Below, piece after piece: positions 10,585-59,224 of a DNA stretch of 64,000 nt. A program made the translations under genes and the position numbers. The DNA is from a virus. The notes beneath the pieces are model-generated. The model searched no databases. It saw only the letters and a list, made by a program, of their open reading frames with translations, and had not been told where the DNA came from. Positions within the stretch are counted from its first letter, which is position 1; every line of letters begins with the position of its first letter. The DNA is taken from positions 218,856 to 282,855 of IMG/VR virus record IMGVR_UViG_3300047548_001236; one strand, 5' to 3'.

Positions 10585-10840
10585 TGTGGTATTTCCTCTT
10601 GATTTCATTTTCGATTTCTACGGCCATGATATTTACAAGCTCGTGTTCGGGATTCAGACCCATAATAACCGAGAGATCGTGAATCAATTCGTTCGATGCA
10701 TTGCTTTCCAACATCAGCTCCGCACCGTTGACTACTGTTGAGAAATTATAGCTGATATCGTTCCAGGATTTTCCCTGCCGAATGCATTTAATGAAGTAGT
10801 CGACGCCATCAACAGTTACCGTGAAATCATCAAGAGTCAT
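10571..10840 (-). CDS. hypothetical protein
   Basis: 89 residues. The ATG at 10840 is preferred because GGAG lies 9 bases upstream, whereas the ATG at 10849 touches the same GGAG. It overlaps both neighbours. No motif was recognised. Confidence 0.6.
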   Translation of the reverse strand: MTLDDFTVTVDGVDYFIKCIRQGKSWNDISYNFSTVVNGAELMLESNASNELIHDLSVIMGLNPEHELVNIMAVEIENEIKRKYHNVQN

Positions 10841-15046: not shown

Positions 15047-16492
15047 TTAGTACCTCCCAGTTTCACGAGGAATGTATTCGCTTTCCATCAAAGCAGCTCG
15101 CTTGCGAATTGCTTCGAACGTGTCTTCGATCAACAGCTCACCGTTCTTGAACACGGTCCGCAGAATGTTTTGCTTGGATACCTCCTCGGGCAGCGTTCTG
15201 AAACCGCAAGAACCAATACCACACTGGTATTCGAGAGCAAGACGGCCTTTTTTGGACTGCTTGCCCTTGTCAGTGATCGGGTCTTTACTGAAACCTTCCC
15301 ACTCACCGTTGTTGATACGAATGGCCGAAGCCTTCATCGCATATTTCAGCGAATCGCGGTTCCAAGCCTGCAGAAGACCACCGCCCATACCGAAGGCGAT
15401 GTTATCGGCACTGAACCCAGCAGCTTTGAGGTTCTCAAGGATAATGGGCAACGTGTGTTCGTTGATACCATCTCCCTGAATCACTCGGATGTAAGGAGGA
15501 AGGACTTTATATCCCTTACTGTTGATCGTGTATCCAAACTTCTCAGCAAGGATCTTAACGACCTCGACAGGAACTGTTTCGGGATCACCACTGTCAGGAC
15601 GTACCACCAAGGTGCCGCCCATGTTGACGATCTTATCTTTCAGCTTGTCGCCCCAAAGATCACGGCATGCCGCATAGATGTCAAAGCTGTCCGAGACACA
15701 TGCAAGGATCTTGCCAGGCCCACCAAACTTGTCCAGCATGTTTTCGAATGCCTTAACTTCGTTTTCACGGCCCCAAGAAGTAATCGTGCTGTGTTCAGAA
15801 GCGGGAATTGAGAATCCAACAACCTGATCAGTGTTGTAGTACGCCATCACCCCTTCAAGAGCTTCGAACGTGTCGGTGCCCATGAAGTTGACAAGGTGTC
15901 CCATACCACCAAGGATTGCTGTTTCACCCGAGCTGGCACCACGAGCACCAAAGTCGTGCAGTTTGAACGTCAGTTGATCCATCACAGGAACATCCGACGT
16001 TTCGTGTAGGGCTTTAGCAATAAGCACCTTCATCTTGCGGCTCTTGGTCGCAACAGTGGAAGGATACCATACACCACGCAGCAGAGCGGTTTCAATGTAC
16101 GAGGTCAGCCACCACAGACGAGGATCGGTGTTGACAACCTGCACTTGAACGTTGTGAGTTTCCATGAACGTTCCTTCCGGAACAGCCTGGATCTCGAGAG
16201 GGAGAAGCCCACCATACTCTTTGACGATGATCTCCCAACCTTCACGGTTGAAAGGCAGGCCATGTGCAGTAACAATACGCTCTGCACGATCGATATCCTT
16301 CATCGTGATCGGAGTCAGTAGGTAGTCTTTGATGAATGCTTGCAGTCCAAAGAATACCGACATATCTTCACCACCACGTGACTCGATGTACGAGCTGATG
16401 TGAGTGGTTCCCTTGGGATATTGCATCCATTGGCTGAACTTGTAGCTGTCGGTGCGAACGATGGTACTGATAAAGCTAAGTACAGTCTTCAT
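15047..16492 (-). CDS. nadV: Nicotinamide phosphoribosyltransferase
   Basis: A 481-residue NAMPT that converts nicotinamide and PRPP to NMN. Conserved active-site segments are seen in order: KLHDFGARGASS (about 177-188, holding the Asp that selects nicotinamide), SIPASEHST with the catalytic-type His at about 234, VVRPDSGDP (PRPP/phosphate binding), IQGDGIN and FGMGGGLLQ. The length equals that of bacterial and human enzymes. It is the first step of a two-step route to NAD+ with the NMN adenylyltransferase just upstream on the same strand. Confidence 0.95.
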   Translation of the reverse strand: MKTVLSFISTIVRTDSYKFSQWMQYPKGTTHISSYIESRGGEDMSVFFGLQAFIKDYLLTPITMKDIDRAERIVTAHGLPFNREGWEIIVKEYGGLLPLEIQAVPEGTFMETHNVQVQVVNTDPRLWWLTSYIETALLRGVWYPSTVATKSRKMKVLIAKALHETSDVPVMDQLTFKLHDFGARGASSGETAILGGMGHLVNFMGTDTFEALEGVMAYYNTDQVVGFSIPASEHSTITSWGRENEVKAFENMLDKFGGPGKILACVSDSFDIYAACRDLWGDKLKDKIVNMGGTLVVRPDSGDPETVPVEVVKILAEKFGYTINSKGYKVLPPYIRVIQGDGINEHTLPIILENLKAAGFSADNIAFGMGGGLLQAWNRDSLKYAMKASAIRINNGEWEGFSKDPITDKGKQSKKGRLALEYQCGIGSCGFRTLPEEVSKQNILRTVFKNGELLIEDTFEAIRKRAALMESEYIPRETGRY

Positions 16493-16549
16493 AATAGAAA
16501 CTCCTTCTATTGTTTGTGTTATGCCAAGACTCTCTGTCCTGGGCTTTGT

Positions 16550-16849
16550 TTAAGCAGCGGCTGGTTTAGCCTCCTGCCATTCTTTAGTCCACCGATCCAG
16601 TTCTTTGTAACCAGTGGGCCAATCATTCAAACCGAGGTCGGTCAGCTTACCGCAGCAGGGGCATTTGAAACATACTGCAGGGTCGCGATAACCCCAAGTA
16701 ACTTCTCCACCCGTCCCCGGAAAATACTTGAGATCGTTGAACTCAATCTCCAACAGAGCGTTACAACCTTCGCCACCATTACCCCATGCAGTACAACGAT
16801 GGCGCATAGCCCATTTTTCGCCAACTCGGCCAGGTTCGATGATTTTCAT
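16550..16849 (-). CDS. Zinc-ribbon-like small protein
   Basis: 99 residues with an early Cys (RHRCTAWGNGGEGC) and a later CFKCPCCGK, together able to bind zinc. It lies between nadV and the NMN adenylyltransferase gene, so a link to NAD metabolism is possible but unproven. Confidence 0.65.
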   Translation of the reverse strand: MKIIEPGRVGEKWAMRHRCTAWGNGGEGCNALLEIEFNDLKYFPGTGGEVTWGYRDPAVCFKCPCCGKLTDLGLNDWPTGYKELDRWTKEWQEAKPAAA

Positions 16850-16861
16850 ATTATGTTCTCC

Positions 16862-17962
16862 TCACAGTACAGGAACAAAATAGTCGATCATGAAAGCATG
16901 ATCTTCGAAGAACCGATCGCGCTGCTTTCCAATCTCATTCAGTGGAACCCAAAACGCTTTTTCAGCATCATCAGATCCTTTCACTTTGGGAAGCTCGCCA
17001 ACACCAAGATCGATGTAGAACGCTTGGGTGATGGTACGCCCACGAGCCGAACGATTCGGAGCATCAAAAGTCTTGGATGCCTTGATAGACCCCTTTAGAA
17101 CAGCAACAGGAACCTTGATCTTGGTTTCTTCTTTCAACTCACGAATGCAACCATCAACCATCGTCTCTTCTTGGTTGAGGAACCCTCCGGGTAATGCCCA
17201 TAAATTTTTTCCCGGCATGTCACCGCGCTTGACAAGCAGGATGTGACCCGACTGAACCACAACAGCATCGACAGTCATGAAGGTCGGCGGGAACGGTGCA
17301 GCCTTCCACGCCTCTTTGTACTTCTTGATCATCTGGTATTCAACAAGAAGTTTACCCCATGCTCCACCAGTATTACTGTTATTTGAGATAATCCGTTTCA
17401 TTTCCCAATGAGATTGTGAAGGCATAACTTCCCTGATGGAATCGTATTCCTCGTAATCAGTGGAATCAAAAAGCGACTTTCGAATGTCGGTGGCATTGAT
17501 ACCATCGACGTTAGGCACTTCAACATGGTTCTTCCACTTCGGGAAGATATTCAAGTAGTAGCTAGTGTGATCTTTCGAGTGACCAATCAGGCCAACATCG
17601 TTGAAATGCGGGCCGAGTGTTTCATCAACGACCTTCTGCACTGCATTGACCCACTTGTTGTCGTCATAGGGGTAGTCAGAGACAGGGACAACGAGAACAC
17701 GAGGGCTGGTTGCGAAGCCTTTGAGACTGCCAGCATCCCATGAGACGACTTCGTCCTTATAGACAGCATCGATCATGGCCTTGCGTTCTTGGAATGTGAA
17801 GGGATTTCGAATGCTCCGAGCAGCGAAACTGGATCCGACTACAACGACAACCTGTTTGGCTTGCTTGAGCGCGGCATCAATGACCGCCTTGTGTCCATTA
17901 TGAAACGGCTGGAATCTCCCTACAAACACAAGAGCATCCCGCATTTTAGTGGTATTTGACAT
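16862..17962 (-). CDS. nadM: Bifunctional NMN adenylyltransferase / Nudix hydrolase
   Basis: 366 residues. The N-terminal nucleotidyltransferase domain has GRFQPFHNGH with the intact HxGH at 21-24, and INATDIRKS (155-163) as the second signature; it makes NAD+ from NMN and ATP. The C-terminal domain is a Nudix hydrolase with the Nudix box at about 260-282 (GG...E...RELKEET), a type often acting on ADP-ribose. Such NadM-Nudix fusions occur in cyanobacteria and phages. GAGGAG precedes the start. It supplies the second step after NadV. Confidence 0.94.
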   Translation of the reverse strand: MSNTTKMRDALVFVGRFQPFHNGHKAVIDAALKQAKQVVVVVGSSFAARSIRNPFTFQERKAMIDAVYKDEVVSWDAGSLKGFATSPRVLVVPVSDYPYDDNKWVNAVQKVVDETLGPHFNDVGLIGHSKDHTSYYLNIFPKWKNHVEVPNVDGINATDIRKSLFDSTDYEEYDSIREVMPSQSHWEMKRIISNNSNTGGAWGKLLVEYQMIKKYKEAWKAAPFPPTFMTVDAVVVQSGHILLVKRGDMPGKNLWALPGGFLNQEETMVDGCIRELKEETKIKVPVAVLKGSIKASKTFDAPNRSARGRTITQAFYIDLGVGELPKVKGSDDAEKAFWVPLNEIGKQRDRFFEDHAFMIDYFVPVL

Positions 17963-50400: not shown

Positions 50401-52092
50401 TCACGATTTATCTTCGATGTCGAGCGTCTTAGGATATCCCTTCTCGCCAGGGCGAAGCCTGCGAAGACCTTTTTCACGACGCTTCCTGATGTTGTACCAG
50501 AGTCCTTTGGGTTTATGCTTTTCCTCGACTACTTGTCCAGGCGTCTCTCTCTTGTATATATCTGTCAAACTGTCTGTGCCCCACTCTCTTTGGTCAGGAA
50601 TGCTTTCTTCTGGATCTAGAGACTCGGTGACGTCAAATGTGTTGAGATATGCCTTATGGCCTTTTGTCAGTCTGTATCTATTGTACAGCTTTTCAAGCTC
50701 TTTAGCTTTTTCAGGGTCAAGATTGTATTTACTCGTGACGGATCCCGCATCACCATCTATATCCGGCGTTGCTTCATAATCTTTGAGTGCTGCAAGCATG
50801 TTCTTTCTTTCAAGTTCACGCTTGATAATTGTCTGGATGGGATCGAGATCGTCCGCTTCATTCATTCTGTCACGAATATCAGCAAACCGTTTTGAAGCTC
50901 TCTTGTTGACATCGGCATGTCTTGCATTCGTCATCATTCTGTGATGTCTGACTGCGTCCACCTTCTTTTCACTTGCGATGACGGAACGCACTCTATCTGT
51001 ATTAGACGTCTCGAGAGCTTCGATCAGCTGATTTAGATCAGTAAGAACCTCAACACTCTCGAAAACAGCATCTGTGTAATTTTTGAAGGCCTCGTTAACA
51101 TGACCTCTGTGTCCTGTAGCCGATGCTGATAGACTAACATGGTGGGAGTGTGATCTGCTTAGACGTTCAGTTTCGACTTTACGAACGACGGGGAGCAGTC
51201 TCTTAGCAATTCGCTCGATCACTGCAGGTGGGATATTCATCAGACGAGCGTCAAGAGCGTTCTTTTCAACCACGGAAAGTTCTGCGTAATCCTTGTTACG
51301 CAGAATACGCGAGCGGATGATTTCAAGCGCTCTTTTACGGGCTCTTTCTCTAAGTTTTTCAGGGGATGCTCTGCGCTCTGCAGCTCTTTCACGTGCGATT
51401 TCAATTCGCTTCGCGTAGCGACGCATCGTCTGCGCCTTCTTAATCCGCTCTGAATACGGAATAGGACGTATCTTTTCTGTGAGGTATCCCTCAGACAAAC
51501 CGTCTAATTGCACCACGACAGCTTCAAATATATCTCTCGCTGATGGACGTAGCGGCATTGCCAACGATTGCTTGAACGAAGTGAAATCACCGCGAATTGC
51601 GTGTTCTGCGATTACATCGTATGACCCAGGATCGCTATATGGAACGATGTCTATTGATTCGAAACGCAGCTCATCACGGTGCATAGCTACTACGTTGGAA
51701 ACGTCATACGCTTCTTCTTGCATGCATACAATCACGACGCTGTTGTATTCGTCTTCGCAAACCTTTAGTGCTTCAAGTATGGTAGGAACAGCACTTGGAT
51801 ACACAATGTTTCCAAAAACGCTTTGGGACATACCAATCCGCTGTTGCTCATCAAGATACCCCTCAGAGACGTCACGGTTTGAAACAAACACATATGTATC
51901 TGCCTCGTACAGCTTTGCATACTTTTTCAGGGTTTCAACCAGACGTTGATCAGCGATAGAGGGAGGGGAATAGTCACCCATCGTCAACATCGCCTTGCTT
52001 TTCTTGTCTCTTTCGAGCGTAGGATTTACCTCGACATATTTTGATGGGCTGAACTTTTTTAGGACAACCTTTTGGATTTTCTTCTCGGTCAT
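50401..52092 (-). CDS. Virion protein: degenerate nucleotidyltransferase domain plus Arg-rich domain
   Basis: 563 residues from the ATG at 52092 after AAAGGTG. The N-domain resembles phage nucleotidyltransferase-like proteins: GDYSPPSIADQRL takes the place of the expected GRFNPPTxGHxxL, so the HxGH residues are lost; VPTILEALKVCEDEYNSVVIV aligns with the later helix-strand. From about residue 205 there is an Arg/Ala-rich helical region (MRRYAKRIEIARERAAERR ... DARLMNIPPAVIERIAKR) conserved in T4-like marine phages. A late promoter precedes it. Probably a structural, non-catalytic domain. Confidence 0.72.
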   Translation of the reverse strand: MTEKKIQKVVLKKFSPSKYVEVNPTLERDKKSKAMLTMGDYSPPSIADQRLVETLKKYAKLYEADTYVFVSNRDVSEGYLDEQQRIGMSQSVFGNIVYPSAVPTILEALKVCEDEYNSVVIVCMQEEAYDVSNVVAMHRDELRFESIDIVPYSDPGSYDVIAEHAIRGDFTSFKQSLAMPLRPSARDIFEAVVVQLDGLSEGYLTEKIRPIPYSERIKKAQTMRRYAKRIEIARERAAERRASPEKLRERARKRALEIIRSRILRNKDYAELSVVEKNALDARLMNIPPAVIERIAKRLLPVVRKVETERLSRSHSHHVSLSASATGHRGHVNEAFKNYTDAVFESVEVLTDLNQLIEALETSNTDRVRSVIASEKKVDAVRHHRMMTNARHADVNKRASKRFADIRDRMNEADDLDPIQTIIKRELERKNMLAALKDYEATPDIDGDAGSVTSKYNLDPEKAKELEKLYNRYRLTKGHKAYLNTFDVTESLDPEESIPDQREWGTDSLTDIYKRETPGQVVEEKHKPKGLWYNIRKRREKGLRRLRPGEKGYPKTLDIEDKS

Positions 52093-52129
52093 GAGAACAC
52101 CTTTCACTGGATTTGAGATCTGTTTACAG

Positions 52130-52140: not shown

Positions 52141-52827
52141 TCAAGACTTTAGGTGTTTGTGAAAGGATGATATTGTAGAACCGTAAAAGGTATCTGCTTT
52201 ATTCCATATTGTCGATTGCCTTATCCATCCGATAGCTGGGGTCGGATCAACAACAGCAAGAGGAACGCGACTTCTTCTTTTCTTCATGAAAAAACGGTTG
52301 TCTATTGGACCACCACCTCCACCAGTCCTCAACTCGTCTAACAGAGATTGTGCTGTTTTAGGAGTCAGTGCGTACGCGTGAGCGCCGTTGTGATGATCGA
52401 TATCTATTATCTTTCTGGGAGGTCCGGCAGCTATGTGATCATACTTAGATGGGTCGTTAAGTTTATACCCCAACACAACAATTTTACCATCGGGAATGTT
52501 CATATTGATAGGATGTAACATCAAAGCATCATGTTCCAAAACAATAGCGCATTGCTGTGTTTCAGCAATGCGCTTCCATATTAATGCATGTGACACGGAA
52601 CAACAGGCTGCTTTGTCAATCTTGTCGTCGTTTATTCGGTGATCCATACTTCCCTGTAGGATTTCTAAACCCGTCGATGTCCACGCATTGTAACTTGTCA
52701 TGTTTTCTACGCCATCAAAGAACTCGTACTGAATGCCTACGCTTTCACATGATCTTGCGCACGTGTCAGCATATTCCCGTGACAGTGGCGACGTAATGCG
52801 AAGGATGTACGCCTTTTCTGGCCTCAT
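52141..52827 (-). CDS. GT25-like glycosyltransferase, copy 1
   Basis: 228 residues. The opening MRPEKAYILRITSPLSREY, the CSVSHALIWKRI helix and AIVLEHDALML (the GT25 ED-type acidic motif) are those of LPS-type beta-glycosyltransferases; GAHAYALT follows. About half the residues match the next gene. It probably moves a sugar onto LPS, a glycoprotein or DNA; the target is unknown. Confidence 0.8.
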   Translation of the reverse strand: MRPEKAYILRITSPLSREYADTCARSCESVGIQYEFFDGVENMTSYNAWTSTGLEILQGSMDHRINDDKIDKAACCSVSHALIWKRIAETQQCAIVLEHDALMLHPINMNIPDGKIVVLGYKLNDPSKYDHIAAGPPRKIIDIDHHNGAHAYALTPKTAQSLLDELRTGGGGGPIDNRFFMKKRRSRVPLAVVDPTPAIGWIRQSTIWNKADTFYGSTISSFHKHLKS

Positions 52828-52831
52828 CGAA

Positions 52832-53506
52832 TTACCTATAGTTGTTGTTGAAAGATTCGATGAACGGGTAGTTTAACGTTGACGATTCTTTCCATATTGT
52901 CGATTTTCTGATCCAACCAATTGCTGGAGTTGGGTCGGCAATTGAGAGAGGAACCTTTGTCCGTCTCATTTTCAAGAAAAAGCAATTGTCAACAGGAGTA
53001 TTAACTCCAATAGTATTTAGCTCGTTCAACATTATTGACGCGGTATTCCACGTGAGTGCATAAGCGTGCGCTCCTTCATGTCCATCGATACCTATTAGTT
53101 TGCGAGGCGGACCAGCCTTGACGTGGTCATAACGGTTCGGATCCTGTAGTTTATAACCGAGTGCGACAATCATGTTATCAGGAATATGAACCGTAACTGG
53201 GTGAAGCATGATTGCATCATGCTCTAACACGATGGCAACTTCCTTTCGTGTGGCTATTTTGTGCCACACCATTGCATGGCTGACTGTTGCACATGCAGCC
53301 TTATCGACTTTCCCCGATTTGTAGACGCCAAGCATCTTGACAGGAAAATGGCACATCATCCATGCATCATATGCTGTTTGATTCTCGATTCCGTCAAAGA
53401 ATTCGTATGGAAGACCAATCTTTTCGCATGATTTTACAGCCTCTGATGCATATTGCTGTGACAGTGGATCAGATATTCGAATAATGTATGCTTTTTCGGG
53501 GTACAT
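52832..53506 (-). CDS. GT25-like glycosyltransferase, copy 2
   Basis: 224 residues from the ATG at 53506, whose first residues (MYPEKAYIIRI) align with copy 1; a GTG at 53521 overlapping the upstream stop is the alternative. VAIVLEHDAIML and EGAHAYALTWNTA repeat the family motifs. Clear tandem duplicate of its neighbour. Confidence 0.8.
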   Translation of the reverse strand: MYPEKAYIIRISDPLSQQYASEAVKSCEKIGLPYEFFDGIENQTAYDAWMMCHFPVKMLGVYKSGKVDKAACATVSHAMVWHKIATRKEVAIVLEHDAIMLHPVTVHIPDNMIVALGYKLQDPNRYDHVKAGPPRKLIGIDGHEGAHAYALTWNTASIMLNELNTIGVNTPVDNCFFLKMRRTKVPLSIADPTPAIGWIRKSTIWKESSTLNYPFIESFNNNYR

Positions 53507-53517
53507 AATATGAACGC

Positions 53518-54213
53518 TCACAGAGTTGTTGTTGATTTCAAGTTTTGAACTTGAGTATAGTAGGTTTTACTCACGGCCAAAAAATTACATAATTGTTGAC
53601 ACATAATTGCATCGTTTGGCCACAGACCGTATTTATAGCAGAGTTCAATCAGATGCTTTGCAGCAAACGGTTTGATGATGTATGCGGAATTGCCAGGCAG
53701 ACCTTGGGGAACCTCCTTACTAGCAAGCATTGGAGGACTCATCAGCTCATCTTTACTGTTCTGTACCATGTCGTGGTACGTCCTAAAAGCAAATGTTGCA
53801 TGCATTGGACTATTGATACCTATTACACCATATCTTGTTTCAAGCAGCGGTTCTGGATCTAGCTTATGCACAAACATTGCGTCATGTTCTAATACGAGGA
53901 TTGGCTCTTGTGTTTGCATGCATTTTTCCCACAATAGAAAATGACTCAGAGAACAAGCGACTCTTCTTTTAGGATCTCTACCACCGTAAGCGGTCTTTCT
54001 CATCTCGGTCCATGGATCTAACACAGAACCGACATCTGGATAATTCCATATCAGCTTTTTAGCCTTCATCAATCCGTCTACGTCAGGTGGCGTTACAGCT
54101 TGAAACCTTTCAACAGTAAACGCGTTACCAACACCTTTTGACGATGATAAAAGAGCATGGAACCCTTTCTCAGATATCTCATTACCGTTCATTACTATTG
54201 CATAAGCCTTCAT
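53518..54213 (-). CDS. GT25-like glycosyltransferase, copy 3 (divergent)
   Basis: 231 residues. RVACSLSHFLLWEKC and ILVLEHDAMFV keep the GT25 pattern, but the rest differs strongly from copies 1 and 2. GNSAYIIKPFAAKHLIE replaces the Ala-Tyr-Ala-Leu segment. It may use another acceptor or donor. Confidence 0.77.
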   Translation of the reverse strand: MKAYAIVMNGNEISEKGFHALLSSSKGVGNAFTVERFQAVTPPDVDGLMKAKKLIWNYPDVGSVLDPWTEMRKTAYGGRDPKRRVACSLSHFLLWEKCMQTQEPILVLEHDAMFVHKLDPEPLLETRYGVIGINSPMHATFAFRTYHDMVQNSKDELMSPPMLASKEVPQGLPGNSAYIIKPFAAKHLIELCYKYGLWPNDAIMCQQLCNFLAVSKTYYTQVQNLKSTTTL

Positions 54214-54216
54214 AAA

Positions 54217-54513
54217 TCAATCCTTGTTATCGAATAACCACTTTGCTTTATCGTCAACCCAAACATCGTACACGGGCTTTTTCATACGCAATTCGTGGTA
54301 TTTACATCCCCACTGTTTCAACTGCTTCTCGGTCAACTCCGAAAAGTCAAGACCTCTACTCATTCCTCGTGCTGTCCAATATATGATAGTGTTTCCTTCA
54401 TCGTAAAGCTGGTTTATACGATCGATTCTTTCTTGGATAGGCTGTGACTGTGTGTAATCGCCAGAAGGCGGTGAAAAACATATAGTCCCATCAATATCTA
54501 CAATGTAAATCAT
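54217..54513 (-). CDS. HAD-family phosphatase
   Basis: 98 residues. DIDGT near the N-terminus (nucleophile Asp), YWTARG with the Thr/Arg, and VWVDDKA (second Asp pair) give a minimal HAD core, as in sugar-phosphate phosphatases near capsule or heptose genes. Coupled by ATGA to the cupin gene. A role removing a sugar phosphate is inferred. Confidence 0.83.
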   Translation of the reverse strand: MIYIVDIDGTICFSPPSGDYTQSQPIQERIDRINQLYDEGNTIIYWTARGMSRGLDFSELTEKQLKQWGCKYHELRMKKPVYDVWVDDKAKWLFDNKD

Positions 54514-54866
54514 CGCTGACTATCTCCTTTGAATACACGGTAGTTATCCTCGACAGAGTCAGGCGTCGAAACTTCCAAAATTGTACCAGCTTCAAGGCAT
54601 ATCAATTGGTGAGGCATTAAAGGAGGATTGTGCCATACGTCACCCACGTTAAGCGTTTTAACGTGTTGCTCTGCATTCGTGGTGTCAATATAACGAACTT
54701 CAAATTTCCCCTGAACAACATACCACGTTTCGTCCTTGACAGCATGGAAATGCATGGAGAACATTGCTCCTCGATTGAAGTTCAAAAACTTCGAACAATA
54801 TAGATCATTGCTGACCCATATGTTTTCAGAACCCCAGCCTTTTTCAACATATCCGGACAATCTCAT
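54510..54866 (-). CDS. Cupin, mannose-6-phosphate isomerase-like
   Basis: 118 residues. MHFHAVKDETWYVVQGKF and MPHQLICLE contain the His/Glu metal ligands of a single-domain cupin (HxH...E...H). Such proteins in sugar clusters act as isomerases or as sugar-nucleotide modifying enzymes. The start overlaps the kinase stop (ATGA). Confidence 0.82.
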   Translation of the reverse strand: MRLSGYVEKGWGSENIWVSNDLYCSKFLNFNRGAMFSMHFHAVKDETWYVVQGKFEVRYIDTTNAEQHVKTLNVGDVWHNPPLMPHQLICLEAGTILEVSTPDSVEDNYRVFKGDSQR

Positions 54867-55612
54867 AGACCCACCTCCTCTAATCTTGGGGCATATACGC
54901 CAACATGACGTACTGTCACTTCCGAAGCTCTCATTGCAAATTGTATTGATTGGCTCATGTCTTGCGTTGAGCAGAACATGTATGATAATGCTGCTAGGAA
55001 CGTATCACCAGCTCCACAAACATCATGCACTTCGACTTTTCTAGGGTAATATACTTCTGCTCCATAGACAACCTTTTCACCGCCGTATGTAACAACAGCA
55101 TCGTGATGATCGGACGTTCGAGCTTCCCACTCGATATGGTTGACCTTGAGACAAAAGCCGTCGAACTGTTTCAAGTCTGTCTTCTTTGTGTCGATAAATT
55201 TAGGACAAGAGTATTTCGATCCTATCACAGCAATATCTTCATATGATAGAAACCCTTTGTTGTAGTCAGATACCACCACACAATCGTACACATCGTCAGG
55301 AAGAGTGTTCAAATCAATGCGATGGTTTCCAAGTCTCTCATCGACCCTAAGCAGTTGTGTGTTTCTTTTTATATCAATATATCGTGTCTTCTTCTCGATC
55401 ACGGCACTGATCATAACGACATCACATCCTAGATTTGAAAGATTTAGCATTACATTGGACGCCATACCACCCAGCTCACGGCTATGATGCATGTCAAGTA
55501 TCGGAACAGGTGCTTCTGGACTTAGTCTGTTGACATTCCCATAATGGTAAACGTCGATACAACTATCGCCTATCAATAATACTTTGAATTGTGTTTGTTG
55601 TTGACTGTCCAT
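54863..55612 (-). CDS. HldE-domain-I-like sugar kinase (PfkB family)
   Basis: 249 residues from the ATG at 55612 after GAGAGG. LLIGDSCIDVYHYG, a GGMASNV phosphate-binding segment, VVSDYNKGFL, and DVCGAGDTFLAAL with the catalytic Asp define the RfaE/HldE kinase domain, which phosphorylates heptose-7-phosphate at C1. It is somewhat shorter than the host domain. Its 5' end overlaps the nucleotidyltransferase gene. Confidence 0.85.
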   Translation of the reverse strand: MDSQQQTQFKVLLIGDSCIDVYHYGNVNRLSPEAPVPILDMHHSRELGGMASNVMLNLSNLGCDVVMISAVIEKKTRYIDIKRNTQLLRVDERLGNHRIDLNTLPDDVYDCVVVSDYNKGFLSYEDIAVIGSKYSCPKFIDTKKTDLKQFDGFCLKVNHIEWEARTSDHHDAVVTYGGEKVVYGAEVYYPRKVEVHDVCGAGDTFLAALSYMFCSTQDMSQSIQFAMRASEVTVRHVGVYAPRLEEVGL

Positions 55613-55967
55613 TGTTCCTCTCAAAATAAACTAGGCTTTCACTATATTCAGCTCCAACGACTGGACGACCTCTCCAGTCAGACCCAATCACTCTCACCGC
55701 GGGCTTGTGTTTCTTCAACAATTCGATCAACTGCTGATCCGAATCAAATTCTTCGACAATGTCTACAGGTTTCAACTGTTCCATAATTGCACGGCGAATG
55801 TTGATTGGGTTGATCGGACGACTCGGTCCCTTCGATTCAGCAATTCTACGATCAGAGTCCAGCCCTACAACTAATCGATCTCCAAGCCCTTTTGCGTATT
55901 TAAGAAGTTCAATGTGTCCTTCATGAAGAAGATCGAATGCTCCATTGCAAAATATCACTTTAGACAT
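55563..55967 (-). CDS. HldE-domain-II-like nucleotidyltransferase
   Basis: 134 residues. CNGAFDLLHEGHIELL keeps the HxGH motif and VIGSDWRGRP is typical of the RfaE-type adenylyltransferase; RRIAESKGPSRP is the usual loop. It activates a heptose- or glycerol-like phosphate to a nucleotide sugar. With the kinase it forms a split HldE, and overlaps it by about 50 bases. Confidence 0.87.
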   Translation of the reverse strand: MSKVIFCNGAFDLLHEGHIELLKYAKGLGDRLVVGLDSDRRIAESKGPSRPINPINIRRAIMEQLKPVDIVEEFDSDQQLIELLKKHKPAVRVIGSDWRGRPVVGAEYSESLVYFERNNGQSTTNTIQSIIDRR

Positions 55968-56574
55968 CGATGATCCTCACGTTGCGGTTACGGTACATTG
56001 CTTCTAACGCATAGTCCCAGAAGTTATGTCGTCGACGGTGCTCGCTGTTTAACAGAATCGTGCACGGGGTTCCTGCAGACATTGCTACCCAACTTGTTCC
56101 CGATGCTGCTCCAACGTGTTCTTGCGCATTCGCTACAGTGTCGAACAGCTGTTTTAGAGTCATGCCCTGTTGATGTGCATTGCTAAGGTCGATCGTTCGA
56201 CGGTTGCCAACATATTTAGACACATCCCCCACACTACGTGTGCTGTTGCGCGAATGTAGCTGCGTAGTAACATAATCGCCGACCGACTTAGTTGTCGTAT
56301 ACTGTACTGTGGGTATGTTGTTTTCCAAATACACTTGATCTGGATATAGCACTGTCGAGTGCGTTCCTCTAAGGAATTTCACTCTATACTTATCAGGATA
56401 TATCTGATTGCTAAGATCTTGAATTAACTTCACACCATATGCGTCAGGATCATCGACATACAAAGTAATATCCGATCCTATATACGCAAGGACAGAGCAT
56501 ACCAGAATGCTGTCGCCTAACTTCCATCCACCAAAACTGGGTCTACCTCTTGCTTCCAGTCTAAAGCTGTTCAC
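55960..56574 (-). CDS. Glycosyltransferase-9-like (heptosyltransferase-like) protein A
   Basis: 204 residues. KLGDSILVCSVLAYIG and the C-terminal AQEHVGAASGTSWVAMSAGTP resemble the nucleotide-sugar-binding half of GT9 enzymes (ADP-heptose:LPS heptosyltransferase fold). Shorter than a complete enzyme. It is adjacent to a second such protein. Assignment rests on motif style only. Confidence 0.6.
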   Translation of the reverse strand: MNSFRLEARGRPSFGGWKLGDSILVCSVLAYIGSDITLYVDDPDAYGVKLIQDLSNQIYPDKYRVKFLRGTHSTVLYPDQVYLENNIPTVQYTTTKSVGDYVTTQLHSRNSTRSVGDVSKYVGNRRTIDLSNAHQQGMTLKQLFDTVANAQEHVGAASGTSWVAMSAGTPCTILLNSEHRRRHNFWDYALEAMYRNRNVRIIDV

Positions 56575-57278
56575 AACAACCTCACATCGTAACCTTTTTC
56601 AATCCATCTCTTTGCAACACCCGTTTGCTTATCAGCTGGAATGTATACGTGGACGTCTTTTGGATCCTTGACGCAATATGCAAAGTGCGTTAGACCGCTG
56701 TCAATACCAACGTGAAACTCGGCGTGCTCAAGCATATATGCAACTGTTGCTAACCCCATACTATCACGTCCACCGATATTGATATAGGCGTAATTGGGAT
56801 ACCAACGACGCAGAATTGAATCGATCATATGTGTCGTGTAACCACACCTTTTCGAAACGCCGGTATACTGGAACGTGACGTATTTCTTAGGAGGGAGAGT
56901 GCATTTTCTCAACTGTGTTTTATCTACTGTCAGATATGGAGCTGTAGGGTAATTGTCCAACACAGTCCGACCGCTAACTTGTGCTAACGTGTCGTTGTCA
57001 TACGACTTGGATATATATGATAGATATCTTCCTTGGTCGATGACTAACCGATCAAGGACGTCGGAAGCATTACACAGCTTTGCAAACTCTTTGTACGCGT
57101 CATTGATGAACGGTACGAGTAGCTTGCTGTTTGCAGGACAGCCGTTGGCAAAGTTGCTGACAGTTGCAACCATATCTCCGAAACCTCGAGGGGTCGTGAC
57201 AAGAACTTTTTGTTGGGTGGAGGCGGGACGGAAAAAATCCGTCCCATCCGAGAAACCGCGTAGAATAAAGTCGTTCAC
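56571..57278 (-). CDS. Glycosyltransferase-9-like protein B
   Basis: 235 residues from a GTG at 57278 overlapping the upstream stop (GTGA). It has TPRGFGDMVATVSNF at the N-terminus and YMLEHAEFHVGIDSGLTHFA near the C-terminus, the latter a good match to heptosyltransferase active sites. With protein A it may act on the activated sugar from the HldE-like pair. Confidence 0.65.
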   Translation of the reverse strand: MNDFILRGFSDGTDFFRPASTQQKVLVTTPRGFGDMVATVSNFANGCPANSKLLVPFINDAYKEFAKLCNASDVLDRLVIDQGRYLSYISKSYDNDTLAQVSGRTVLDNYPTAPYLTVDKTQLRKCTLPPKKYVTFQYTGVSKRCGYTTHMIDSILRRWYPNYAYINIGGRDSMGLATVAYMLEHAEFHVGIDSGLTHFAYCVKDPKDVHVYIPADKQTGVAKRWIEKGYDVRLL

Positions 57279-57880
57279 GGAACTAGCCTTAGCTGGTGTT
57301 GACCATATTGGGCATATGCTCTGCTTGCCCAATCCAAGAAATTGGTGGGTTGGAAGTTTGACAGAGCTGGGTCCACATACCAGTCTTCAAAATAGATTCC
57401 ATGCATATCCAGACGTCGAACGTCTTTAATTACACGAAGGTATCCTTGTGCTGTAAGAAGTTCGTAAGCCTTGATCTGGTATACGTCATTAGTTGAGTAC
57501 TTGTCATGCTCAAACGTGATACATTTAGTGCGGATTCCTGCATCAACGATACGCTGCAATGCTTTGAATGTGAATTCTGGCGGTTCGATATCAAGCGATA
57601 TGTAATCGAAGAATTTTTCGTTTAAACCTTCATAATCGAACGTCAGCGCATCAGCAATATGGAATTCATCCTTCGTTCTCCACGAAGAGTTCCACATTTC
57701 CCTGTATTTCTCTTCAATCTCTATCGATACCCCAGACCACCCGTTCTTTTCGAGCAAAGCTGTGTTACTGTTTTTTTCAGGTTGGTATGCTCCTATTTCC
57801 AACCACCTTTTGCCTTTGCCACACACTTCGAGAGCAAAAAGATCTTGCAGTGCGTGCGTTGAGCTTCTAAATGAATTCAT
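57275..57880 (-). CDS. FkbM-like methyltransferase
   Basis: 201 residues. WLEIGAYQPEKNSNT is a SAM-binding motif I in a FkbM-like setting, and YISLDIEPPEF follows as motif post-II. It probably O-methylates a sugar, as often seen in phage glycan clusters. Target unknown. Confidence 0.75.
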   Translation of the reverse strand: MNSFRSSTHALQDLFALEVCGKGKRWLEIGAYQPEKNSNTALLEKNGWSGVSIEIEEKYREMWNSSWRTKDEFHIADALTFDYEGLNEKFFDYISLDIEPPEFTFKALQRIVDAGIRTKCITFEHDKYSTNDVYQIKAYELLTAQGYLRVIKDVRRLDMHGIYFEDWYVDPALSNFQPTNFLDWASRAYAQYGQHQLRLVP

Positions 57881-58371
57881 CGTTTAACTCCCATAGCTGC
57901 GAACGAGTTGTAAAGGTCGACCTCCGACACGAAAATTTTCTCCCATCCTCTTGCTTCAAAATAATCGCGGATAAACTGAGGAAGAAGAATATTGACGTGC
58001 TTTCTGTTGTTCCATGGTCTCCAGTATTCTTGTGAGTAGTGTGGCAGATATAGGAACATTACACCGCCTGGCCTGATCCTCGTGGACCAGTAATCAAGCA
58101 CTCCAACCCAATCTGGAAGATGCTCTAAACAATGTGAAGAGAAGATGTAGTCGTATTGGTGGTCTGGAAGATTGTTTGCATGATATTCGTCATCGACAGA
58201 CAGGTCAATCAACCTTGCTCCTGGAAATTTCCACTGCTCGTTTCCACCCCCGATATCTAGCCCCTCGCCGCGTAGAACCTCTTTTGCAAAAGGCATTATA
58301 AATCTAGCTGCATTACCGTTTGTTTGAAAAGCAGGATATTGGCCTTCTTTGAAAACTACTGTATCGATCAT
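57877..58371 (-). CDS. SAM-dependent methyltransferase (class I)
   Basis: 164 residues. EGLDIGGGNEQWKFPGA (motif I), YIFSSHCLEHLPDW (motif II) and RPGGVMFLYLPHY (motif III) define a methyltransferase-11-like enzyme. Coupled by ATGA to the glycosyltransferase gene upstream. Confidence 0.82.
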   Translation of the reverse strand: MIDTVVFKEGQYPAFQTNGNAARFIMPFAKEVLRGEGLDIGGGNEQWKFPGARLIDLSVDDEYHANNLPDHQYDYIFSSHCLEHLPDWVGVLDYWSTRIRPGGVMFLYLPHYSQEYWRPWNNRKHVNILLPQFIRDYFEARGWEKIFVSEVDLYNSFAAMGVKR

Positions 58372-59159
58372 CTTAGTCCTTCCATGTTTAATACTTGCTC
58401 GACATTCTCACCTTTTGACGGTAGATGATCCTTCAAGAAGAAGTGTATAAAATACGAGTCTTTTAGGTAAAAATCTTCGATCCCTTTGTATAGCGCATTC
58501 CATCTCCAGTTGAGGCGCTTGTATTTGACACCGTCTTTACGAATCCAGTAGTTTAACAAAGTTTGATCTGTAGACCATTTCCAGAATCCAAGACCATCAA
58601 TGAAACGCTTGAATTCTGGACGAGCAAGAAACTCTGCAGGTGTCTGACCGTTGAGGTACTTCTTGATCTCGCTGCTGAAAATCATCAGACCCATATTCAT
58701 AAACTCGTAGCCACGTTCGTTTTTCTTCCAATCGATGTCGGTTAGCGTCTCGTACTGTTCTCTCGAGTAAGCTGAAATCTTGCCAAAATATGCTCTGGTG
58801 AGCGGCATCTCTCTCTCGACCACAGCTCCAAATTCCGAACCGTCGTCCAGCTCAGCAAATATATTTGGTGCATTTTCTCGGATGTAGATATCCGAATCGA
58901 TGATAGCTATTCTATCATACTGATCGAGATATGAAAACGCATTTTCCTTCTCGTATATAGGTAGATAGCCCAGTCTTCCATATGAAGCTGAGCTGCGATT
59001 TGTTACCTTGATGTCTGGAACTATTTTTAGGATGGGTTCTCGCTGAACAATATGATCAAACCCATGCTTTTTACAATATCTTGCTACCGATGCAACACAG
59101 TAGTCGTACAGTTTCAGTTTTGGTCCTACATAGACCTGGTATATCATACACTTCTTCAT
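58368..59159 (-). CDS. GT-A glycosyltransferase with DxD motif
   Basis: 263 residues from the ATG at 59159 after GGGAGAG. IAIIDSDIYI supplies the DxD metal site of GT-A enzymes (GT8-like), and FMNMGLMIFS and STDQTLLNYW are usual acceptor/donor loops. The leader holds a hairpin and a late promoter. It starts the sugar operon. Confidence 0.8.
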   Translation of the reverse strand: MKKCMIYQVYVGPKLKLYDYCVASVARYCKKHGFDHIVQREPILKIVPDIKVTNRSSASYGRLGYLPIYEKENAFSYLDQYDRIAIIDSDIYIRENAPNIFAELDDGSEFGAVVEREMPLTRAYFGKISAYSREQYETLTDIDWKKNERGYEFMNMGLMIFSSEIKKYLNGQTPAEFLARPEFKRFIDGLGFWKWSTDQTLLNYWIRKDGVKYKRLNWRWNALYKGIEDFYLKDSYFIHFFLKDHLPSKGENVEQVLNMEGLR

Positions 59160-59216: not shown

Positions 59217-59224
59217 TATTTATA
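59217..59224 (-). promoter_or_regulatory. T4-type late promoter of the sugar operon
   Basis: An exact TATAAATA reading leftward, about 58 bp before the glycosyltransferase ATG, in the gap before the operon. Confidence 0.75.

Follow-up and report, generated by a model that had tools for sequence, protein, structure and literature searches.

A predicted miniature heptose-activation pathway, with a cupin in the place of GmhA, in a late cassette of a large T4-like phage

Cyanophage "LPS clusters" (LPS, lipopolysaccharide) have been known since the 2000s. The heptose pathway requires an isomerase acting on sedoheptulose-7-phosphate (S7P), and its bacterial ADP-heptose version consists of GmhA, HldE, GmhB and HldD. 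In T4-like phages the families T4-GC 304, 305, 307 and 308 co-occur, and the question whether they are functional or stuffer DNA was left open (Sullivan 2010, PMC3037559). Sugar clusters of jumbo phages likewise contain a PfkB kinase, a HIGH nucleotidyltransferase, a cupin, a HAD protein and glycosyltransferases; their description left the heptose pathway and the step of the cupin unassigned (Iyer 2021, PMC7824862). Viral and archaeal heptose enzymes make ADP-heptose according to Tang 2024, which, as relayed by PMC11573728 and PMC11461863, reports the phosphatase as absent from viruses. Here we analyze a stretch of 64,000 nucleotides (the window), positions 218856-282855 of the 282,855-base virus record IMGVR_UViG_3300047548_001236, in which 12 open reading frames (ORFs) on the minus strand, running from 59159 to 52141, make up a sugar cassette. 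Four of its genes encode a nucleotidyltransferase (NT, 55563..55967), a compact kinase (KIN, 54863..55612), a metal cupin (CUP, 54510..54866) and a small HAD phosphatase (HAD, 54217..54513). We consider it quite likely that these proteins provide a late phage route from S7P to ADP-heptose, which the glycosyltransferases of the cassette would then use to build a glycan.

Judged by family membership, the module of NT, kinase, cupin and small HAD is already known from cyanophages (T4-GC 304-307) and from hundreds of viral contigs. The four families occur together in P-SSM2, S-SSM7 and P-TIM68, and the window has adjacent members of T4-GC 304, 305 and 307 (NT, compact kinase and cupin). The T4-like cyanophage LPS clusters of P-SSM2, S-SSM7 and S-SM2 (T4-GC 304-308) resemble the window in having the same four families, at ~32-57% identity, adjacent to each other and in a late region. 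The window differs from them in that its cupin precedes the HAD, an HldD-like epimerase (T4-GC 308) is missing, and GT25 and GT9 genes flank the module. In comparison with the bacterial pathway, kinase and NT are relatives of the HldE domains, but are encoded as two small proteins, and a SIS-type GmhA, a GmhB-type HAD and HldD are all missing. We found no match to PF13580 (SIS-type GmhA) or PF01370 (HldD epimerase) in the 282,855-base record, which may be incomplete.

From gene content and family ties we infer the reactions, as well as the nucleotide, the sugar and its acceptor. CUP would isomerise host S7P to heptose-7-phosphate, a cupin thus taking the place of GmhA; KIN would phosphorylate C1 of this product; HAD would take off the C7 phosphate, instead of GmhB; and NT would attach a nucleotide, probably AMP, giving ADP-D,D-heptose. 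Because the record lacks HldD, the D,D epimer would be used as such, unless the host supplies the epimerase.

The neighbourhoods of viral relatives place the module in heptose activation. The kinase family matches at least 580 viral contigs, and we counted neighbours at 57 kinase loci on viral contigs, each flanked by 3 kb or more on either side. Partners were NT (54 loci), cupin (54), epimerase (50), GmhB-type HAD (16) and small HAD (14), with both HAD types together at none of the 57. The neighbouring epimerases resemble ADP-heptose 6-epimerase (TIGR02197, E=1.7e-58 to 4.9e-62), and some relatives have a larger, GmhB-like HAD (PRK08942, E=1.5e-38); this HldD-type epimerase and GmhB-like HAD thus suggest that the module belongs to heptose activation. 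A preliminary description of this DNA had proposed that the phage makes its own activated sugar and uses it late, which agrees with these neighbours and with the late promoter described below; its proposal of a heptose supply stands, while it misassigned the type of the HAD and overlooked both the absence of GmhA and HldD and the role of the cupin. In an annotated phage collection the cupin was present in all kinase-bearing records (31/31, all marine T4-like), and GmhA was found in none of 50 kinase-bearing viral records. Two contigs, L036 and L066, share much of the cassette order with the window, and the retrieved stretch of L036, like the source phage, has no epimerase gene.

Kinases and nucleotidyltransferases of the ADP-heptose route are unrelated to those of the GDP-heptose route; the routes have only the isomerase and phosphatase steps in common. 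In the phages Bellamy and SynMITS9220M01 the cupin is flanked by an HddA-type kinase (NF049969, E=7e-83 and 3e-85) and an HddC-type nucleotidyltransferase (NF049965, E~1e-16), and Bellamy also carries a small HAD with 55% identity to that of the window. Since cupin and small HAD are thus found with GDP-heptose genes, and the routes share those two steps alone, the gene contexts indicate that these two proteins fill the shared steps.

Further evidence comes from cellular genomes. Scanning bacterial and archaeal genomes, we found cellular contigs in which the cupin adjoins full-length HldE-type genes or is fused to them: in the order cupin-kinase-GmhB-NT (L132), as cupin-kinase-NT with a kinase of 377 bits, over the equivalog cut-off of 345 (L158), as a kinase-cupin fusion (L160) and as an archaeal GmhB-cupin-NT fusion (L154, genome G003). 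L094 and probably L106, L108, L109, L118, L125, L139 and L163 are probable phage contigs within metagenome-assembled genomes (MAGs), and we left them out of the cellular evidence. We then surveyed 148 archaeal genomes of one DPANN phylum, plus G004, with thresholds of at least 280 bits for the HldE-type kinase, 80 for GmhA and 100 for the cupin. Among the 29 genomes with a strong kinase, 17 had GmhA, nine had the cupin and three had neither; none clearly had both (Fisher p=2e-5, or 3e-4 if G105 is counted as having both). The cupin did not reach 100 bits in any of 30 kinase-poor control genomes. Four of the archaeal cupin genomes have kinase-cupin fusions; in two sister genomes (G085 and G104) the kinase is fused to GmhA instead, which occupies the C-terminal position that the cupin has in the others. 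Three other archaeal genomes have cupin-HldD-kinase operons, and G049 (L192) combines a kinase-cupin with an NT-GmhB and an epimerase.

Because of this co-occurrence, fusion, displacement of GmhA and pairing with both heptose routes, we predict phosphoheptose isomerase activity for the cupin, which would stand in for GmhA at step 1 of the pathway. The family occurs in hundreds of phages and in some DPANN archaea and bacteria. It is fairly likely, in our estimate, that its members make up a second class of phosphoheptose isomerases, non-homologous to GmhA, which it displaces in ADP- and GDP-heptose routes, that the small HAD replaces GmhB, and that the phages are self-sufficient. In the openly readable literature, subscription papers being outside the scope of the search, we found no proposal of a cupin phosphoheptose isomerase.

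The protein itself, first described as a cupin, has 118 residues and is a metal cupin with an intact metal site: the 3-His/1-Glu ligands (H39, H41, E46 and H86) are invariant across 28 sequences, and the S-H-H-K-E motif is present in 128 of 129. Its AlphaFold2 model is confident (pLDDT 94.7), and a Foldseek search with this model returned many cupins, including D-lyxose/D-mannose isomerases at TM 0.75; the sequence profile matches aldose-ketose isomerases (D-lyxose, L-ribose) in the PDB. D-lyxose/D-mannose isomerases and type II phosphomannose isomerases share the same metal cupin fold and catalyze aldose-ketose isomerisation. The window cupin has ~19% identity to them, and differs in its predicted substrate, a heptulose 7-phosphate. 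These structural matches are compatible with the isomerase role, not diagnostic of it. The cupin could instead be a mannose-6-phosphate isomerase, or an epimerase or ketoisomerase tailoring a nucleotide sugar, with host GmhA feeding the kinase. It is indeed weakly similar to WbuC and to the C-terminal cupin of type II phosphomannose isomerases (PF01050, 22.1 bits, below the cut-off of 23.6), four of nine members of the family match PF01050 at E<0.01, and a type II phosphomannose isomerase has been reported from the cyanophage S-SCSM1 (PMC9602691). The S-SCSM1 enzyme was not among the matches of the cupin, so it was set aside as a candidate for the same protein. The fusions to kinase, GmhB and NT, the replacement of GmhA in kinase-positive archaea and the pairing with enzymes of both heptose routes point to step 1 rather than to later tailoring, which makes this alternative unlikely.

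The HAD of the window had been described as GmhB-type; we reject this assignment, as TIGR00213 gave no match and the best family is EcbF-BcbF (TIGR01689). It is a 98-residue, C0-type phosphatase of phrog_1238, EcbF/BcbF-like, in which all four HAD motifs are present and conserved (DxDGT, T47, K79 and DD87-88), and its profile matches PDB entry 9iqw (E=2.5e-19). We predict that it is probably the heptose-bisphosphate phosphatase, acting in the role of GmhB, and a viral GmhB was found beside a small HAD at none of 88 viral loci. Relative to the NDP-heptose enzymes of Tang 2024, as far as these are presented in the two papers that relay the work, the present set adds viral GmhB homologues, the small HAD as a candidate and the cupin as a proposed isomerase.

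KIN and NT are closest to the two domains of HldE, encoded separately as the preliminary description had proposed. KIN is a compact, predicted heptose-7-phosphate kinase of the RfaE domain I type, for which we prefer the ATG at 55612 over the TTG that opens the ORF at 55624. Its best family is TIGR02198 (E=1.3e-36; 126 bits against an equivalog cut-off of 345), with further matches to phrog_8133 (E=2e-79) and PF00294 (PfkB, E=3.5e-16). NT is a predicted heptose-1-phosphate nucleotidyltransferase of the RfaE domain II type, with TIGR02199 as best family (E=3.4e-32; 111 bits against 181.5), phrog_7878 at E=9e-45 and PF01467 at E=1.3e-15. STTR5 is a motif of promiscuous nucleotidyltransferases (PMC11573728). 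NT ends in RNNGQSTT, without the arginine of this motif, so that an ADP-sugar is our default guess for its product.

The module may have descended from HldE and changed substrate, yielding another activated sugar (another heptose, a hexose or a pentose). Both enzymes score under the equivalog cut-offs, KIN is shorter than the HldE kinase domain by ~60 residues, and HldD is missing from the record. However, KIN aligns with the D-beta-D-heptose 7-phosphate kinase 4e84 and conserves both the RxSPEAPVP segment and the GAGD motif; most relatives have an HldD-type epimerase nearby, GT9 is the heptosyltransferase family, and viral heptose enzymes are reported to be active in Tang 2024, as relayed. 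We thus regard a different sugar as quite unlikely.

Several observations weigh against the heptose pathway proposed here. With KIN and NT under their equivalog cut-offs (126/345 and 111/181.5 bits), a related sugar is possible. By E-value, quercetinase and oxalate decarboxylase come out on top among the structures similar to the cupin, and the sugar isomerases rank lower. The archaeal counts come from MAGs that share ancestry and are not phylogenetically independent, and one genome, G105, has a 61-bit SIS_2 match on another contig, the sole possible overlap between GmhA and cupin. For the phosphatase step, the exclusivity of small HAD and GmhB is modest (p=0.035), and neither is nearby in 54 of the 88 viral loci.

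Other proteins were also noted. In a Neomarinimicrobiota MAG, a phage-like contig codes for a compact kinase and NT fused into one protein, a mini HldE of 379 residues (L094:4745-5884), accompanied by an epimerase, the cupin and a GmhB-type HAD. A third PF01467 protein, in a 143-residue open frame (G000:74988-75305, L003), has ~23% identity to the cassette NT, and genes at window positions 15047-17962 resemble those of NAD salvage (NadV-like by eye, with a nucleotidyltransferase matched by PF01467).

The record codes for a T4-type major capsid protein (PF07068, E=1.8e-146), whose nearest relatives, at ~66% identity, are those of the Sinorhizobium phages phiN3/phiM12 and of Methylophilales phages. 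Judged by this protein, the source is a large T4-like phage (283-kb record) that is not a close relative of cyanophages; no near-identical match was found in the phage records searched. A weak match (21.5 bits) to a fragment of the T4 capsid family lies in a 97-residue open frame at window positions 10595-10711.

In order of transcription, the cassette encodes a GT8 protein, a methyltransferase, a possible methyltransferase, a GT9 protein, an orphan of 204 residues, NT, KIN, CUP, HAD and three GT25 enzymes (a, b and c). With spacings of -58 to +4 nt, most commonly 4-nt overlaps, it looks like a single operon. Its neighbours are of late type, with a virion structural protein (phrog_1645) upstream and an endolysin downstream; a protein of 568 residues adjoining the cassette (window 50401-52107) has a weak cytidyltransferase-like match at its N-terminus (phrog_3041, E=6.8e-14). 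A T4-type late promoter, TATAAATA, is located on the same strand at 59217..59224, 58 nt before the first ATG (59159). The window contains seven exact copies of this sequence against 1.23 expected (0/100 shuffles), and the whole record contains 46, against 18 for a reversed-pattern control. T4-like late transcription of the operon is supported by this enrichment and by the copy just 5' of the first gene, in line with the late promoter initially noted.

The remaining genes of the cassette would use the activated sugar. The GT8-like glycosyltransferase (58368..59159; PF01501, 26.5 bits against a cut-off of 24.3) starts at ATG 59159 in an ORF open to 59213, has a DSD motif, answering to the DxD glycosyltransferase first reported, and has orthologues in L036 and L066. 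The three GT25-like enzymes named at the outset were all recovered with PF01755 (cut-off 24): a (53518..54213, 46.6 bits), b (52832..53521, 35.0 bits) and c (52141..52827, 40.3 bits). GT25a has an orthologue immediately 3' of HAD in both L036 and L066, and c is a tandem duplicate of b (55% identity). One of two proposed GT9-like proteins holds, marginally: that at 56571..57332 matches PF01075 at 22.6 bits (cut-off 22) and TIGR02193 at E=7.9e-5, with a relative in L066 at 127 bits. The other, the orphan at 55960..56574, is GT-B/GT9-like by eye only; PF01075 gave no match, and its AlphaFold2 model, made without an alignment, was discarded (pLDDT 32.7), leaving the GT9 call unsupported. Single-sequence scans found no relatives of GT25b or of this orphan in the viral contigs. 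As to two proposed methyltransferases that use S-adenosylmethionine, the first is a Methyltransf_23 protein (57877..58371; PF13489, E=4.2e-11) with orthologues immediately 5' of NT in L036 and near NT in L066; the second (57275..57880), FkbM-like by eye, is sub-threshold with PF13489 (12.5 bits), and a further profile search gave nothing at E<0.1.

Late in infection, the GT9, GT8 and GT25 proteins would build a short heptose-containing glycan, probably methylated by one or two methyltransferases. Its acceptor would most likely be virion proteins, or else the cell envelope. LPS or another envelope glycan of the host, modified so as to block superinfection or alter a receptor, is a possible target that we hold tentatively: Iyer 2021 (PMC7824862) proposed it for clusters of cyanophages, and the GT9 and GT25 families are of LPS type. 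However, a phage would be expected to exclude superinfection early, whereas the operon is preceded by a late promoter; the cassette adjoins a virion structural gene (phrog_1645), and the clusters of P-SSM2 and S-SSM7 are near tail-fibre or neck genes. Given the late timing and the adjoining virion genes, glycosylation of the virion seems preferable to superinfection exclusion. Modification of phage DNA, as with glucose or arabinose in T-even phages, is suggested by the presence of glycosyltransferases in a T4-like phage; we consider it very improbable, as the cassette glycosyltransferases belong to GT8, GT9 and GT25 and none matches a DNA-modifying family. No evidence for DNA as acceptor turned up, and no search was aimed at dCMP hydroxymethylase or DNA glucosyltransferase.

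Virion glycosylation aside, the analysis bears on families of long standing. T4-GC 304, 305, 307 and 308 read as the nucleotidyltransferase, kinase, isomerase and 6-epimerase of one pathway. Public names look wrong for phrog_1238, a HAD called "phosphoheptose isomerase", and phrog_7851, a cupin called "cysteine dioxygenase" (L008:14749-15093 and 15074-15430), and precise predicted reactions can now be offered for both families. Tang 2024, in the form relayed, reports viruses as lacking the phosphatase, and the small HAD would be a candidate for this enzyme. If these predictions are true, phages would possess a fully self-sufficient, miniature heptose-nucleotide pathway.

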